From Candidatus Altarchaeales archaeon WOR_SM1_SCG (GTDB lineage Archaea; Altiarchaeota; Altiarchaeia; IMC4; WOR-SM1-SCG), in contig MCBE01000011.1 of assembly GCA_001723845.1 (NCBI GenBank), positions 1 to 36,196 of the forward strand: 36,196 nt of DNA, in the 5' to 3' direction. The notes beneath the pieces are model-generated. The model saw nothing but the letters and a program-made list of their open reading frames with translations. It made no database searches and was not told where the DNA came from. A program made the translations under genes and the position numbers. Positions 1,689-36,190 of the stretch are shown one piece after another. Each line of letters starts with the position of its first letter. Within the stretch, counting starts at the first letter, position 1.

Positions 1689-4112
1689 TTATTTTCGGGT
1701 GAATTGCCTATTTTCCCATAACATTTGGGAAGCTTCAAAGGCATCATCAAGCCGATTTTGCTCCAAAAACAATTCGTATGCAATTTTTAATTCGTCCTCT
1801 GCTTCCTTATATCTTTTTAAATGTTTTAATAAACTTCCTAAATTTGCATGTGCTTCTGCATATTCAGGATTTATCTCTATTGATTTTCTGAATGCTTCTT
1901 CTGCTTCCTTATATCTTTTTAGTTCTGCTAACAAAACCCCGAAACTTCCTTGTGCTCCTGCATATTCAGGCTTTATTTCTATTGCTTTTCTAAATTCTTC
2001 TTCTGCTTCTTCATATCTTTTTAATTTTATTAATAAAAGTCCTAAATTGCTGTGTGCTTCTGCATATTCAGGGTTAATCCTCATAGCTCCCCTGTATTCT
2101 CCCTCTGCTTCCTTATATCTTTTCAAATCGTATAATAAAGTCCCTAAATTAATGTGTGCGTTTACATCTTCAGGATTTATCTCTATTACTTTTCTGTATT
2201 CTTCCTCTGCCTCTTCATATTTCTTTAAATTGTGTAATAAAAATCCTAACTTTTTGTGTATGTGCGCATCTTTATCCGGCAGTTCATCTTTTAATTTTAT
2301 TGCGGCTTTATACTCTGCTTCTGCTTCTTCATATCTCTTTAACTCTACTAATAACTCACCTAAATTTCGATGTGCTTCTGCATATTCAGAATCAATCCCT
2401 ATTGCTTTTCTGAATTCTTTCTCTGCCCCCTCATATTTCTTTAAATTTTGCAGTAAAACACCTAAATCGCTGTGTATTCGTGATCCTTTATCTGGTAATC
2501 CGTCCGTTAATTTAATCGCTTTTCTATATTCTCCCTCTGCTTCACCATATCTTTTTAACTTTTGCAGTAAAACACCTAAATTTGCGTGTGCATCTGCGTC
2601 TTCAGGATTTATCTCTATCGATTTTCTGAATGCTTCTTCTGCCTTTTTGTACCTCTTTAGTTCAGCTAATAAAACACCTAAATTGTTAAGTACTTTTGTA
2701 AGTTCAGGATTTATCTCTATTGCTTTTCTATATTCTTTCTCCGCTTCCCTATACCTTTTCAGAATTTGTAATAAAGTTCCTAAATTAGAGCGCGCATCTG
2801 CAAGGTCGGGATTTATCTCTATTGCTTTTCTATATTCTTTCTCCGCTTCCCCGTACCTTTTCAGAATTTGTAATAGAATTCCTAAATTTGCGTGTGCATC
2901 TGCAAGGTCGTGGTTTATTTTTGTTGCTTTTCTATATTCCTCTTCTGCATATTCATATCTTTTTAACTTCATTGATAAAACTCCTAAATTGTTGTGTAAT
3001 TCTGCAAGTTCAGGATTTATCTCTATCGCCTTTCTATATTCCTCTTCTGCCTCTTCATATCTCTTTAAGTTTTGCAGTAAATTTCCTAAAAGAGCATGTG
3101 CTTCTGAAAATTCAGGATTTATCCCTATCGCTTTTTTGAGTTCCACCTCAGATTCTTCATATCTTTTTAACTTTTGCAACAATTTCCCTAAATTATAATG
3201 GGCTTCTGCAAGTTCAGGATTTATCTCTATCGCCTTTCCATATTCATTCTCTGCTTCTTCATATCTTTCTAAATCCGCCAATAAAATCCCTAAATTGGCG
3301 TGGGCTTCTGCATCTTCAGGATTTATCTCTATTACTTTCTGATATTCTTTTTCTGAATATTCAAAATTTTTTGTATAATAATAAATTAATCCTAATTTCA
3401 AGGAGAGCAGTGAAATCCAGTTTTCATCTTTCTTTTTTTCAGCAATTGCAATTGCTTTTTTGCAAGATTCTTCTGCTTTTTCAAACTCTTTTAGTTTCAT
3501 GTAAGAATCAGCAAGCGCCGAATATAGCGAAATTTTCGTGTAATCATCCGCATCTTTCAATAGGAATTCATCTACTTTTATTGTTTTCTTTATATCCTCA
3601 GTTTCTTCATTACTTCCTGCAAATTTAAAAATTTCTGTTTTTGGTTCTTTTATAGAGGGTTCGGGAAGCATTCTTCTACTTTCTTCATCTTTTTCAACAA
3701 ACCAATAGACACTTGATCTGAACCTGAAAAAATCAGGGCTTTTGAGCGGAATTTCCTTGAAAATATATTCCGGAACCCACAAAAGTATCGGTCTTCCAAT
3801 TCCCGCAATTGTCTCCCTATGAACCTGGATAAATCCGTAAATTTCAGGAACTCCCTTTTCAAATCCAAAAACATTGAAAATAACATTTTCATCGATTCCT
3901 TTAACCTTCTTTTCATGTAAAATGCCCGGCAAGTATTTTGTTTCAAACGATTCCGGGGAAAGAGTAATATCTTCAAATTTTATTTCATTTAAATCGTTGA
4001 TTAATTTATTTTTAATTTCATCAATCTGCCATTTCTCGCAAACTATAAAAATTATTGCTCCATTTCCTTTTGCGATTCTTATCTCATTTTCTAATTTTAG
4101 TAAAGAACTCAT
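1689..4112 (-). CDS. TPR-array protein paired with an upstream ATPase
   Basis: An 807-residue protein with two parts. Residues 1 to about 175 form a globular domain with ends such as RPILLWVPEYIF and KSPDFFRFRSSVYWF. I recall this pattern from N-termini of STAND-associated TPR proteins but cannot name the family. From about residue 190 to 780 there are some 17 tetratricopeptide repeats of 34 residues (consensus EEYRKAIEINPELAEAHNNL). Two are expanded to 38 residues by a DxLPDK insertion. No signal peptide or membrane segment is visible, so it is probably cytoplasmic. Its ATG overlaps the stop of the ATPase gene as ATGA (4109-4112), which points to translational coupling and a shared complex. 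The near-identical repeats suggest recent repeat amplification. Likely role: sensor or scaffold of the ATPase partner. Confidence 0.85.
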   Translation of the reverse strand: MSSLLKLENEIRIAKGNGAIIFIVCEKWQIDEIKNKLINDLNEIKFEDITLSPESFETKYLPGILHEKKVKGIDENVIFNVFGFEKGVPEIYGFIQVHRETIAGIGRPILLWVPEYIFKEIPLKSPDFFRFRSSVYWFVEKDEESRRMLPEPSIKEPKTEIFKFAGSNEETEDIKKTIKVDEFLLKDADDYTKISLYSALADSYMKLKEFEKAEESCKKAIAIAEKKKDENWISLLSLKLGLIYYYTKNFEYSEKEYQKVIEINPEDAEAHANLGILLADLERYEEAENEYGKAIEINPELAEAHYNLGKLLQKLKRYEESEVELKKAIGINPEFSEAHALLGNLLQNLKRYEEAEEEYRKAIEINPELAELHNNLGVLSMKLKRYEYAEEEYRKATKINHDLADAHANLGILLQILKRYGEAEKEYRKAIEINPDLADARSNLGTLLQILKRYREAEKEYRKAIEINPELTKVLNNLGVLLAELKRYKKAEEAFRKSIEINPEDADAHANLGVLLQKLKRYGEAEGEYRKAIKLTDGLPDKGSRIHSDLGVLLQNLKKYEGAEKEFRKAIGIDSEYAEAHRNLGELLVELKRYEEAEAEYKAAIKLKDELPDKDAHIHKKLGFLLHNLKKYEEAEEEYRKVIEINPEDVNAHINLGTLLYDLKRYKEAEGEYRGAMRINPEYAEAHSNLGLLLIKLKRYEEAEEEFRKAIEIKPEYAGAQGSFGVLLAELKRYKEAEEAFRKSIEINPEYAEAHANLGSLLKHLKRYKEAEDELKIAYELFLEQNRLDDAFEASQMLWENRQFTRK

Positions 4113-11048: not shown

Positions 11049-11441
11049 ATGGGTCAGCCGGCAGCTAAAATGGGCGACAGAATTGTTGCAACAGACACGC
11101 ACATAATAATGATTCCCTCACCGGGGGGACCTGTCCCGACACCGCTTCCCCATCCTTTTAACGGGATAATAAACGGGGATTTAAGCAGTGATGTTTTCAT
11201 TGAAGGAAAACCGGCTGCAATTGTCGGAAGCACCGCGATGAACACGCCGCCGCATATACCCCAGGGAGGTCCGTTCCAGAAGCCACCTTCAAACCAGGGA
11301 AAAATACAGGTAGGAAGCCCGGCGGTTTTTATAAACGGGAAGCCTGCTGCAAGAAACGGCGATACGGCAGTGACATGCAACGACCCCGCGGATTTGCCTG
11401 TCGGGAAAGTCATTGCCGTTGGCACGGTGTTTTTCGGGTAA
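11049..11441 (+). CDS. PAAR-domain spike-tip protein
   Basis: One hundred and thirty residues rich in Gly, Pro and Ala, with repeated PAAR-type turns: MGQPAAKMGDRI at the start, EGKPAAIVGS in the middle, INGKPAARNGDTAVTC near the end, and a central PSPGGPVPTPLPHPF. PAAR proteins form the sharp cone at the tip of the VgrG or phage spike in contractile injection systems. No C-terminal toxin domain is attached. The gene starts 66 bases after the Cys-rich membrane protein and is followed by gp25-like and baseplate-J-like genes, which supports assembly into one spike/baseplate. Confidence 0.9.
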   Translation: MGQPAAKMGDRIVATDTHIIMIPSPGGPVPTPLPHPFNGIINGDLSSDVFIEGKPAAIVGSTAMNTPPHIPQGGPFQKPPSNQGKIQVGSPAVFINGKPAARNGDTAVTCNDPADLPVGKVIAVGTVFFG

Positions 11442-11511
11442 ATAATAAAAATAATAATTAAGAAACAATACAAAAAAACAATACAAAAAAAACAGCAAAA
11501 TAACAACAAAA

Positions 11512-11940
11512 ATGACAGAGGAACTGCTCGGGATTGATTTAAAATTGTCGGGAACGCGGGTTGATAAATTCCTTGAATTCAGGGATTTGCAGGTGAATGC
11601 AAAAGGGGATTTTGATGTTGTGAGCGGAAACTACAACCTGGGGCAGGCGATTTTCAACCGCATCAGCACGAGGCAGGGCGAACTTGAGGAATTCGGGCAT
11701 CCGGCTTACGGCTCACGGCTTTATGAACTAATCGGCGAGCCAAACAATGAGAGAACCAGGGAACTAATAAAAATGTATGTCAGGGAATGCCTCATGCAGG
11801 AACCGCGTATAAAGGATATCCCGGGTATTTCGGTTAAAGAAAGAACCAGGGATTCGGTTGATGTGAGCATTACGGTGATTCCGATTGAAAGTGAAGTTGC
11901 CCTGAACATTGTATTCCCGTTTTACCTTGAAATTGTGTAA
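11512..11940 (+). CDS. GPW/gp25-family baseplate wedge protein
   Basis: One hundred and forty-two residues of the GPW/gp25 family, the baseplate wedge protein found next to the sheath ring in phages, type VI secretion (TssE) and extracellular contractile systems. Motifs in favour are GNYNLGQAIFNRISTRQGELEEFGHPAYGS with YELIGEPN (the classic 'R--T--GE-----YG' core) and the DSVDVSITVIPIES strand pair. It sits between PAAR and the baseplate-J-like gene, the typical order in archaeal and bacterial contractile clusters. The upstream 70 bases are A-rich and without a clear ribosome site. Confidence 0.9.
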   Translation: MTEELLGIDLKLSGTRVDKFLEFRDLQVNAKGDFDVVSGNYNLGQAIFNRISTRQGELEEFGHPAYGSRLYELIGEPNNERTRELIKMYVRECLMQEPRIKDIPGISVKERTRDSVDVSITVIPIESEVALNIVFPFYLEIV

Positions 11941-11990
11941 TTATACTCAATTATTTAATTATAATAAAATTCAAAAATAATTTTTTAATT

Positions 11991-13559
11991 ATGGCATTTG
12001 CAAAAAAACACTACAACGAAATAGTAGAGGATGTGCTTGCGAGAATAACAAAAGGAGTTGTTAACGAACGGCATGAATTTGTTCCGGGAAAATCAAGATA
12101 CCTGCTTTCATCAACGCCTGCCGGGGAAATCATAAAAATTGAGGGTACATTAAACGCAACGAACACCGCATTCAAAAAAGACAGGGACTACGCTCTTGAG
12201 GATAATTCAATCGCCTGGAAAGAAGACGGTGAAAAACCCGATGATTCAACATATTTTCTTGTAAATTATATTTTTGGCGACTCAACAAAAACAGCAGGCA
12301 TAACGGACATAAACCCGGGGAGCGTTGCAAGAACACTTGTTGAAGCGGTTGGAAGAGAGATTGATTTTGTGTACGAGGAAATGAACCAGATTTACCTTTC
12401 GGGTTTTATTGACACGGCAAGGGGTTCTGCACTTGACATGGTTGTTTCAATTCTCGGTATTGAAAGAAAACCGCCCGAGCGCGCAGGCGGCAGTATAACA
12501 TTCGGGAGAAACACGCCGCCCGGGGAGATTTCAAAAACCGAATCAATAATAAGCGACGGGAGAAAAAGATATGTCCTTAAAAATGCTCCTGTGAAAAATA
12601 TAATTAAAATTTCAGGTACCGTAAATTCCGAATCAACGGAGTTTGAGGAAGATACAGGTTACAGGTTAATTGAAGGTGAAAAAGGAATTTTAAGTACAAT
12701 TGAATTTTTAAATGATTCAAAAAAGCCGGATATTAAAACCGTTTTTAATGTTGAATACGCTGCGTATGAAAAAATAATTATTCCCGGCGGAACCGTTATT
12801 TCAACCGCAGGTCCGGTTCCTGAAAATGTAAAAACATTTAAAACAGGAAAAGAAGCAATTCTCCTGCCTTCAAAAGAAGATAAAAACAGGTGGCTTGCAG
12901 ATGTCTTTGCGGTATCGGAAGTTCCCGGAAAACAGGGAAATGTTAATGCAGGTGCGGTAACGGTAATGCCGAAGCCCCCTGTTGGAATTGAATATGTTAT
13001 AAATAAAAATGATATTTTAACCGGCTCGGACGAGGAATCCGATTATGACCTGAAAAAAAGAGCAAAACACGCGCTTGAAGCAGCAGGAAAAGCAACATAC
13101 AATTCATTAAAGACCGCTGTCATGGGCGTTGAAGGTGTTAATTCCGCGGTTGTTGAAGACATGCCAGAGGGCGTTTCAGGAGTTGTTAAAATAATTGCAG
13201 ACGGCGGGTGGGAGGATGAAATAAAAGAGGTTATTGAAAACACACGCTCTGCGGGAATAAAAGTTGAATTTTACCGCCCGAGGATTGTTGACATTGGAAT
13301 TGAATTGAATTTAAAATTAAGAAAGGAAGTTGATGAAATTTCCGTTAAAGAAATTGAGCCGGAAGCAAAAAACAGGGTGAAAGATTACATTGACTCGCTT
13401 GACATCGGCGAGGATGTCATCTATAACCAGGTAATAAACCGCGTGCTTGATATTGAGGAAATTCTTGATGTCATTGTGAAGGTAAACGGAGCGGAAGAAG
13501 ATGTTGAAATAGCGTCCGATGAAATGGTTAAGTTGAAGAATATTGATGTGTTTTTTTAG
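11991..13559 (+). CDS. baseplate J-like protein with duplicated insertion
   Basis: A 522-residue baseplate protein of the phage Mu gp47/P2 gpJ type. PGSVARTLVEAVGREIDFVYEEMNQIYLSGFIDTARGSALDMV (about residues 105-150) is the family N-terminal region. SDEESDYDLKKRAKHALEAAGKATYNSLKTAVMGVEGVNSAVV (345-387) is the conserved core, and a repeated beta region follows. Two parts, about residues 36-93 and 190-260, are similar to each other (RYLLSSTPAGEIIKIEG and RYVLKNAPVKNIIKISG), showing an internal duplication of a small beta domain. It is the last gene of the spike/baseplate set and converges on ilvN. J-like proteins bridge the hub and the sheath-bearing baseplate. Confidence 0.88.
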   Translation: MAFAKKHYNEIVEDVLARITKGVVNERHEFVPGKSRYLLSSTPAGEIIKIEGTLNATNTAFKKDRDYALEDNSIAWKEDGEKPDDSTYFLVNYIFGDSTKTAGITDINPGSVARTLVEAVGREIDFVYEEMNQIYLSGFIDTARGSALDMVVSILGIERKPPERAGGSITFGRNTPPGEISKTESIISDGRKRYVLKNAPVKNIIKISGTVNSESTEFEEDTGYRLIEGEKGILSTIEFLNDSKKPDIKTVFNVEYAAYEKIIIPGGTVISTAGPVPENVKTFKTGKEAILLPSKEDKNRWLADVFAVSEVPGKQGNVNAGAVTVMPKPPVGIEYVINKNDILTGSDEESDYDLKKRAKHALEAAGKATYNSLKTAVMGVEGVNSAVVEDMPEGVSGVVKIIADGGWEDEIKEVIENTRSAGIKVEFYRPRIVDIGIELNLKLRKEVDEISVKEIEPEAKNRVKDYIDSLDIGEDVIYNQVINRVLDIEEILDVIVKVNGAEEDVEIASDEMVKLKNIDVFF

Positions 13560-32292: not shown

Positions 32293-32943
32293 ATGCTCTT
32301 AAAAACCCTAACACTGAAACTGGAATCAGACAAAAAAATCATCGGAAAACCTCAGTTACTCAGGGGTTTCTTCGCAACAAAATTCAACGAGTATGTTTTG
32401 CTGCACCAGCATCACTTAGGCGAGTTTATTTATAGTTATCCTCTTGTCCAGTATAAAATATTAAATAATATTCCAACCGTCATCGGCATAAACGAGGGCG
32501 CAGAGGTTTTAAAGGAAATTTACGATAAATATGATTCAATAAAATTAGGGGATGAGGAATACAGGATATACCAGAGGGAAATCATTATTAAAGAGCAGGA
32601 ATTCGGCGTCTCCGGTAAATTCCATAAATATAAATTCCTTACTCCGTGGTTTGCTTTAAACCAGAAGAATTTCCAGGAATACAAGGAGTTAAACAATAAA
32701 GACAGGAAAGAAAAATTGAGGAAAATCATGATAGGAAATATAATCGCCGTGTCAAAGGGTCTTTCTTATGTCGTTGACAGGGAAATAAAACTGGACGCCG
32801 AACTGGTTGAGGTTAGAAGTCCCTTTAAGGGGCAGGAGATAACAACTTTCAACGGCGAATTTATCGTGAACTTTAATATCCCTGATTTACTCGGTATCGG
32901 GAAATCAGTGTCAAGAGGTTTTGGAACGATCAAAAAATGTTAA
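32293..32943 (+). CDS. cas6: Cas6 crRNA-processing endoribonuclease
   Basis: Two hundred and sixteen residues of the Cas6 family, which cuts the CRISPR transcript within each repeat to give mature crRNAs. The C-terminal glycine-rich loop GIGKSVSRGFG is typical. The N-terminal RAMP fold includes KLESDKKIIGKPQLLRG, and HHLGEF supplies a histidine that may be catalytic. It ends at TAA 32941-32943. The frame stays open after this stop for about 45 codons through the start of a tandem repeat. Confidence 0.9.
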   Translation: MLLKTLTLKLESDKKIIGKPQLLRGFFATKFNEYVLLHQHHLGEFIYSYPLVQYKILNNIPTVIGINEGAEVLKEIYDKYDSIKLGDEEYRIYQREIIIKEQEFGVSGKFHKYKFLTPWFALNQKNFQEYKELNNKDRKEKLRKIMIGNIIAVSKGLSYVVDREIKLDAELVEVRSPFKGQEITTFNGEFIVNFNIPDLLGIGKSVSRGFGTIKKC

Positions 32944-32956
32944 GGTATTTTACCCG

Positions 32957-33303
32957 GAGACATGGAATGGTTATTCTGTAAAGAGGAATGGTTATCATTC
33001 CACAAGAAAGGATTAACCGGAGACATGGAATGGTTATTCTGTAAAGAGGAATGGTTATCGTGTAGAAGGAAATGGTTATCCTGAGACAAGGAATGGTTAT
33101 AATTCCCGGTGAATAATCATCCGGAGACAAGGAATGGTTATAATTCCATAAGGAAGAATACCCCGGAGACAAGGAATGGTTATAATTCCCGGTGAATAAT
33201 CATCCTGAGACAAGGAATGGTTATAATTCCCTAAGGAAGAATACCCCGGAGACAAGGAATGGTTATAATTCCCTAAGGAAGAATATCCATGAGACAAGGA
33301 AGA
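32957..33303 (+). repeat. minisatellite between cas6 and cas1
   Basis: Eleven occurrences of a core that reads GGAATGGTTAT (cores at 32964, 32985, 33027, 33048, 33068 with one extra A, 33090, 33131, 33173, 33214 and 33255, and a decayed one near 33298). Spacing is 20-22 or 41-43 bases, so the unit is 41-42 bp with half-units of 21. From 33090 the units share GGAGACAA before the core and ATAATTCC after it. The inter-core segments alternate between a GTGAATAATCATCC type and a TAAGGAAGAATA type. GGAAT and ATTCC can form a small hairpin in each unit. It is not a CRISPR: spacers are themselves repeats. No gene is supported in either strand. Confidence 0.9.
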
Positions 33304-33548
33304 AGAACCATGAGGAATCGAATGGCATTCATTTAAACGGGTTTGCTCTTAAAATAATGCGTTTTTAGTTTTAATAAATTCAAGCCAACAACAACTTTCC
33401 ATGAATTCCCGGCATAAGACATGAAATAGAAATACCCCCTGTTTCAGGTTTAACATATTTCTTTAACCTGTTTGCTTTACATTCAATTTTTAATTTTATT
33501 TAATTTTATTTAAATTCCTAATTCTTAACACGGCATCCTGAATAAAAA
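33304..33548. promoter_or_regulatory. non-coding region upstream of cas1
   Basis: No gene. Holds AT-rich runs just before cas1 (TTTTATTTAATTTTATTT) and an imperfect inverted repeat, CAGGTT (33445-33450) with AACCTG (33465-33470). The cas1-cas2-cas4 genes are separated from cas6 by about 600 bases, so a second promoter is likely here. Confidence 0.4.
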
Positions 33549-34520
33549 ATGCAGCTTGTAATAAACACATACGGATCGTATTTACGAAAAAAGAATAATT
33601 GTTTTCTCGTTAAAAATGAAGACACTGTTTTTGAGGTATCGGTAAATAAGGTGGACAGCATCCTGATAACCACTTCTGCGTATCTTTCAACCGACGCCGT
33701 TAAATTTGCAGTTGACAACAACATTGACATTGTTTTTCTTGACCACTTCGGCGACCCCTACGGCAGGGTGTGGCATTCAAAACTCGGAAGCACAACTTTA
33801 ATCAGGAGAAGGCAGCTTGAAATCTACGATAAGCCGGAGGGCTTGAAGTTAGCAAAAAACTGGGCGTCCAAAAAAATCGGGAACCAGGTTAAATTGATTA
33901 AGAAATTGAAGAGCACGAGAAGTGAAGGATTAGAGAAATTCCAGGAACACATAGATAAAATAGAGAAACTGAAAGAGAAACTCAGTGACTTAAAAGGTAC
34001 GGTGGATGAAAGGCGGGCGGATATTATGGGTCTGGAGGGTATGGCATCCCGGATATATTTTGAAGCAATAAGTTCGGTAATGCCCGAGAGATTTAAATTC
34101 AGCGGGAGGAGCAGGAACCCTGCAATAGACGAGTTTAACTGCCTGTTGAATTACGGTTACGGAGTTTTATATTCAAGAGTTGAGAAAGCGTGCATTATCG
34201 CGGGGCTTGACCCTTATATCGGCTTTATACATACTGATAACTACAATAAAAAATCACTGGTTTTTGACCTTATTGAGATGTTTCGAATTTATGCGGATAA
34301 AACCGTGATTTACTTATTTTCCAAACGAAAAGTTAAGGAAAAACACTTTGACGAAGTTCCGGGGGGCTTGAGTTTAAACAAAGAAGGTAAAGCGATATTA
34401 ATTGAGGAACTCAACAAAACATTTGAGAAAAAAATAAAGTACAGGGGAAGGGAAATTAAAGTTAAAAACATAATCCCGATGGAATGCCACAGGATTGCTA
34501 ACGAATTGATAAAAAAATAA
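33549..34520 (+). CDS. cas1: Cas1 spacer integrase
   Basis: Three hundred and twenty-three residues of the type I-B Cas1b kind, the metal-dependent integrase that inserts new spacers next to the leader. Motifs: VDNNIDIVFLDHFGDPYGR in the N-terminal beta domain; MASRIYFEAIS, holding the catalytic Glu near residue 160; GFIHTDNYN (His about 227); SLVFDLIEMFR (Asp/Glu about 240). All appear intact. cas2 starts two bases after the stop, a tight adaptation operon. Confidence 0.95.
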   Translation: MQLVINTYGSYLRKKNNCFLVKNEDTVFEVSVNKVDSILITTSAYLSTDAVKFAVDNNIDIVFLDHFGDPYGRVWHSKLGSTTLIRRRQLEIYDKPEGLKLAKNWASKKIGNQVKLIKKLKSTRSEGLEKFQEHIDKIEKLKEKLSDLKGTVDERRADIMGLEGMASRIYFEAISSVMPERFKFSGRSRNPAIDEFNCLLNYGYGVLYSRVEKACIIAGLDPYIGFIHTDNYNKKSLVFDLIEMFRIYADKTVIYLFSKRKVKEKHFDEVPGGLSLNKEGKAILIEELNKTFEKKIKYRGREIKVKNIIPMECHRIANELIKK

Positions 34521-35517: not shown

Positions 35518-36190
35518 GTTGCAGAGGAACTTCCATTAAAATAAGGATTGAAACAAGGAAGAAGATATTTTGATAGATAAGGGGTATGGGTTGCAGAGGA
35601 ACTTCCATTAAAATAAGGATTGAAACACATAATAACAAAAATACCAAGTCCGTAAACAATCCGGTTGCAGAGGAACTTCCATTAAAATAAGGATTGAAAC
35701 CTGTTCGGGACTTTTCTGTCTTTTAATGAATTATGTTGCAGAGGAACTTCCATTAAAATAAGGATTGAAACTGCCGCAGTTCGTTATGTTATTGTAATCA
35801 GAACCAGTTGCAGAGGAACTTCCATTAAAATAAGGATTGAAACAGTCCAATGTATCAAGATGGGTTTTGTCGTGTTTTTGTTGCAGAGGAACTTCCATTA
35901 AAATAAGGATTGAAACCTTCCGGGAAAAACCGGAGAGGGGAAGAAAGAGGAAGTTGCAGAGGAACTTCCATTAAAATAAGGATTGAAACATCGGTGAAGG
36001 ATCACCGACGCGGCTTTTTACGCCAGTTGCAGAGGAACTTCCATTAAAATAAGGATTGAAACCGGACACAAGGGAAGACTTGGAAAAGTCGGCGGCTCGT
36101 TGCAGAGGAACTTCCATTAAAATAAGGATTGAAACATTATTATTTACTTATCCAGAACCCCCCCGCCATCCGTTGCAGAGGAACTTCCAT
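35518..36190 (+). CRISPR. type I-B CRISPR array, nine repeats plus a truncated tenth
   Basis: Nine 37-bp repeats, all alike, beginning GTTGCAGAGGAAC and ending AAGGATTGAAAC (starts 35518, 35590, 35664, 35735, 35807, 35880, 35953, 36026, 36099). A tenth begins at 36172 and keeps only its first 19 bases before the final six bases of the window differ. Nine spacers of 34-37 bp lie between. The ATTGAAAC end is the typical crRNA 5' handle of type I-B systems, matching the adjacent cas genes. Repeats are identical throughout, so no decayed distal end is reached. No spacer was seen to match elsewhere in the window by eye. Confidence 0.98.

Follow-up and report, generated by a model that had tools for sequence, protein, structure and literature searches.

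A 21-bp minisatellite between cas6 and cas1 in the CRISPR locus of Candidatus Altarchaeales archaeon WOR_SM1_SCG

The gap between cas6 and cas1 in Candidatus Altarchaeales archaeon WOR_SM1_SCG contains a non-coding, head-to-tail minisatellite at positions 32943–33297 (forward strand) of the window, the whole 36,196-nt stretch of contig MCBE01000011.1 that was analysed. It is most likely an ordinary minisatellite that arose by slippage in this lineage, within a spacer that tolerates added DNA and at a junction prone to insertions, and it probably has no dedicated function; as a repeat it looks ordinary and does not look like a new CRISPR component. With the interference genes (up to cas6) on one side and the adaptation genes (cas1-2-4) on the other, the array fills the cas6-proximal part of a 605-bp gap and is situated ~250 bp upstream of cas1. 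The features of this region are as follows.

32293–32943, forward strand: cas6 (Cas6b; Pfam Cas6b_N and Cas6b_C), with its stop codon where the array begins
32943–33297, forward strand: minisatellite, a partial unit plus 16 units (Tandem Repeats Finder [TRF], unit layout, autocorrelation, sequence)
32954–33079, forward strand: 5′ part of the array, two 63-bp higher-order copies (TRF period 63, 86% match)
33080–33245, forward strand: 3′ part of the array, two 83-bp higher-order copies, 96–98% identical (TRF period 83, direct repeat family D6)
33298–33548, forward strand: non-repetitive, AT-rich rest of the gap (sequence), probably holding the cas1 promoter
33549–34520, forward strand: cas1 (Pfam Cas_Cas1)
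35518–36190, forward strand: CRISPR array with 37-nt repeats (repeat families D1/D5), unrelated in sequence to the minisatellite

The array opens at the cas6 stop codon with a partial unit, GGTATTTTACCCGGAGACAT, at 32943–32963, slightly upstream of the start at 32957 given in the original prediction, which otherwise located it correctly. Sixteen units follow, fourteen of 21 bp and two of 20 bp (at 33111 and 33194), all with a GGAATGG-like start, and the array thus falls within the definition of a minisatellite (a head-to-tail unit of roughly 10–100 bp). TRF identifies an array at 32950–33100 with periods of 21 and 63 and another at 33078–33301 with periods of 42 and 83; together with the exact core copies these confirm that the repeat is real and lies between cas6 and cas1 as claimed. 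Ten of the 16 units carry an 11-bp core, nine of them exactly (GGAATGGTTAT at 32964, 32985, 33027, 33048, 33090, 33131, 33173, 33214, and 33256) and one with a single mismatch (33069), which gives ten cores in place of the earlier count of about eleven. The other six lack the core and end in GAGACA plus one base. In the ten units that carry it, the core hardly varies, whereas the other 10 bp differ strongly; an 18-bp motif, GAGACAWGGAATGGTTAT, is present in seven copies. The 21-bp steps of the original prediction correspond to adjacent core-bearing units, and its steps of 41–42 bp each span two units, one with the core and one without, the unit being 21 bp throughout.

Autocorrelation of the array has peaks at lags of 21, 42, 63, and 83 and none at 7, 10, or 11; the absence of a 7-bp periodicity rejects an origin of the 21-bp unit from a heptamer. 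An extra 41-bp dimer (33246–33286) follows the two 83-bp copies. The nested periods (21, 42, 63, and 83) and the almost identical 83-bp copies are what stepwise duplication in tandem typically produces. A protein repeat is rejected, with stop codons in all forward frames, frame shifts introduced by the 20-bp units, and an array that begins only once cas6 has ended; on the reverse strand a spurious ORF of 80 codons overlaps part of the array.

We infer that slippage during replication, or unequal recombination, made head-to-tail copies of a 21-bp sequence immediately after the cas6 stop codon, an origin close to the recombination scar that was one of the options originally put forward. The copies would then have diverged, and re-duplication of larger blocks (63, 83, and 42 bp) would have produced the 16 units with their alternating flank types. 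The array would persist because the cas6–cas1 junction is tolerant, related loci gaining and losing insertions there, and at most it may lengthen the cas6 3′ untranslated region and distance cas1 from it. The cas1-2-4 genes would be transcribed from a promoter of their own, and a TTTAAAT-type box is predicted from the sequence ~35–45 bp before the cas1 ATG. A short inverted repeat (CAGGTT..AACCTG, 33444–33471) is also present between the array and cas1, and is possibly an operator or a terminator-like stem.

The host genome readily carries intergenic tandem repeats, since TRF finds 412 arrays in 1.38 Mb of it, and the non-coding tandem clusters of 90 bp or more in that sample number at least 28. 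A period of 21 is the commonest (50 arrays, compared with 6 for period 20 and 11 for period 22). The cas array is left out of the 28 clusters solely because the spurious reverse ORF overlaps it, and it would rank third longest among the non-coding clusters of the 1.38 Mb sampled. Many of the non-coding arrays consist of G-rich heptamers (CCCCTAA and its variants), and this family has no relation to the cas array. Intergenic tandem repeats have been described for some archaea (PMC6749651).

The cas6–cas1 junction is a flexible joint, an insertion-prone module boundary, as seen in a comparison set of 29 related loci in which cas6 is followed by cas1. The two genes overlap or are separated by no more than 135 bp in 23 of these, and in the other six the gap holds an MNT/HepT-like (MNT/HEPN-type) toxin-antitoxin pair or its remains. 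These six, Methanoperedens-type I-B loci (L046, L047, L050, L055, L061, and L069), have gaps of 560–900 bp; the nucleotidyltransferase (MNT)/HepT pair in L055 was typed by Pfam, and in locus L058 the two ends of such an insertion are all that remains, a clear scar of internal deletion. The closest relative in the same order, with a Cas1 72% identical, has a 3.1-kb gap (L110:133–3239, G021:C125) with an AAA/DUF4143 ATPase and an AbiEii-like toxin together with its upstream partner. Tandem arrays occur at cas junctions of two other archaea: eleven copies of AGGGAAT run out of the 3′ end of cas6 at L075:2603–2680, with the stop codon inside the array and a CRISPR array beyond, and a 16-bp unit is repeated 4.7 times between cas1 and cas2 in L042. 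Both are unrelated to the 21-bp minisatellite. Nothing comparable is found between cas6 and cas1 in any of the 29 loci, which bears out the earlier view that arrays of this kind are no usual component of type I-B loci, and a minisatellite at this position is not reported in the open-licence literature searched.

Searches for the unit point to a single site. The array unit has no homologue elsewhere in its own genome (an assembly that is 74% complete), is absent from 28 other genomes of the phylum, and has no match in phage and plasmid collections; an exact 17-mer has three isolated single matches in viral contigs, none in an array. The clustering of the core is far beyond chance, because the remaining 2.5 Mb of the genome holds just six more copies of the 11-mer, scattered singly. 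Five of these six were inspected: each stands alone, and four fall within reading frames. According to the original prediction, absence of the array from all relatives and from transcripts, or a unit common throughout the genome as a generic minisatellite, would speak against a special role. None of the relatives tested has the array; the unit itself is not common in the genome, though non-coding minisatellites generally are.

Some observations run against neutrality. In length, the cas array ranks near the top of the non-coding tandem repeats sampled from this genome. In a crude neutral simulation of mutation with duplication of blocks, with overall identity matched, 6 of 595 runs yield as many distinct flanks around a single shared 11-mer and 29 of 595 an equally large contrast between core and flanks; the statistic was chosen post hoc and the result depends on the model. 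This better conservation of the core than of its flanks (about 1–5% in the simulation) is no more than a hint of either constraint or a recombination-prone core.

An unlikely alternative is that the 11-bp core, together with the GAGACA to its left, is recognised by a regulator or a chromatin protein, which would insulate the adaptation genes or control their expression; repetition would then raise occupancy, as at iterons or operator arrays. The better conservation of the core than of its flanks, the seven copies of GAGACAWGGAATGGTTAT, the position upstream of cas1, and the presence of a gene for an archaeal histone-fold protein in the genome are consistent with it. However, all copies of the core on the contig lie within the array, so it is present neither at the cas8 promoter nor in the CRISPR leader; the array unit is absent from the 28 phylum genomes, and the inspected copies of the core outside the contig are isolated and mostly within reading frames. 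The binding array originally suggested is accordingly unsupported, and it is distinctly improbable that selection maintains the invariant core for binding and that the array acts as a control element or insulator, specific to this lineage, that uncouples cas1-2-4 from the interference operon.

The same proposal had every core facing one side of the helix. With a 21-bp unit, the cores are spaced in multiples of 21 with no need for selection on helical phase, and the phase drifts: at 10.5 bp per turn, the first 20-bp unit displaces the cores after it by −34 degrees and the second brings this to −69 degrees, a drift of ~70 degrees in all. Phasing is therefore rejected as a designed feature and is a trivial by-product of tandem copying, and regular spacing within a tandem array should not be taken for designed helical phasing.

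It is very unlikely that the array yields a repetitive small RNA, for example one processed by Cas6 or resembling CreA. The array is directly behind cas6 on the coding strand, where transcription probably includes it in the cas6 3′ end, and CreTA modules are known from type I-B intergenic regions, such as that between cas6 and cas8 in Haloarcula hispanica (PMC8501985). A 5-bp GGAAT/ATTCC stem could form in six units, although it had been proposed for every unit and is possible in only six of the ten cores. The RNA fold of the whole array is no more stable than those of shuffled sequences (z-score −1.27), and an Rfam search returns no family, with one chance match (E 0.82) far below the cut-off, which leaves the idea of a structured repetitive RNA without support. 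Degenerate CRISPR or CreA repeats are rejected: neither the array nor the rest of the gap is similar to the cognate CRISPR repeat (local alignments are no better than those of shuffles), and the conserved ATTGAAAC handle is missing save for single one-mismatch octamers. The stretches between the cores are not unique spacers and alternate between two repeated types, as the original prediction had noted of the flanks. CRISPR spacers that target the array are likewise rejected, the best local score being 22 with a shared stretch of ~10 nt that is taken as chance.

It is equally improbable that the array is the surviving repeat of a decayed insertion (a toxin-antitoxin module, a MITE, or a plasmid-like origin with iterons): relatives do carry toxin-antitoxin and other insertions at this junction, with deletion scars, and the unit length resembles that of plasmid iterons, but nothing of the toxin, antitoxin, or ATPase proteins seen in relatives is left in the gap (best tblastn E 0.25), by which a toxin-antitoxin relic is rejected, no terminal inverted repeats surround the array, plasmid and phage records hold no match, and no replication gene is seen nearby.

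The minisatellite has close counterparts in the archaeal non-coding satellites and minisatellites of Subirana and Messeguer (2019; PMC6749651), which are similarly head-to-tail, intergenic, and of a unique sequence at one site in one species; the present array differs in its location between cas6 and cas1, its 21-bp unit, and its higher-order structure of 42, 63, and 83 bp. It also resembles bacterial VNTR loci as a general class in the length of its tandem unit and its local duplication pattern, here in one genome. With the CRISPR arrays and CreA repeats of type I-B systems (PMC8501985) it shares regular spacing, a cas locus, and a neighbourhood where CreTA can occur, but it is unrelated to the CRISPR repeat, its "spacers" are repeated, and the processing handle is absent. 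The G-rich heptamer repeats of Xanthomonas and Nostoc (PMC4692102) are similarly intergenic, tandem, and often near a stop codon, whereas the cas array has no 7-bp periodicity and a separate heptamer family is found elsewhere in this genome. The value of the array is modest, as one example of the cas6–cas1 boundary in type I-B loci acting as a flexible joint, where archaeal loci acquire toxin-antitoxin pairs, lose them, or expand tandem repeats.

Several other repeats and genes were seen. The 74%-complete assembly has a histone-fold gene, but no gene for ribosomal protein S28e was found in it. Intergenic CCCCTAA/TTAGGGG heptamers occur genome-wide (e.g. C12:5607–5718, C185:21196–21300, and C234:19903–19965), where a 21-mer search allowing up to three mismatches gives 163 matches, against no match in the 28 other genomes of the phylum; they are reminiscent of the heptamer repeats that form quadruplexes in Xanthomonas and Nostoc (PMC4692102). 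A gene for a large TPR-repeat protein (1689–4112, reverse strand) is the source of the window's longest tandem DNA array, and PAAR, gp25/sheath-initiator, and baseplate-J genes at 11049–13559 form part of a contractile injection system.
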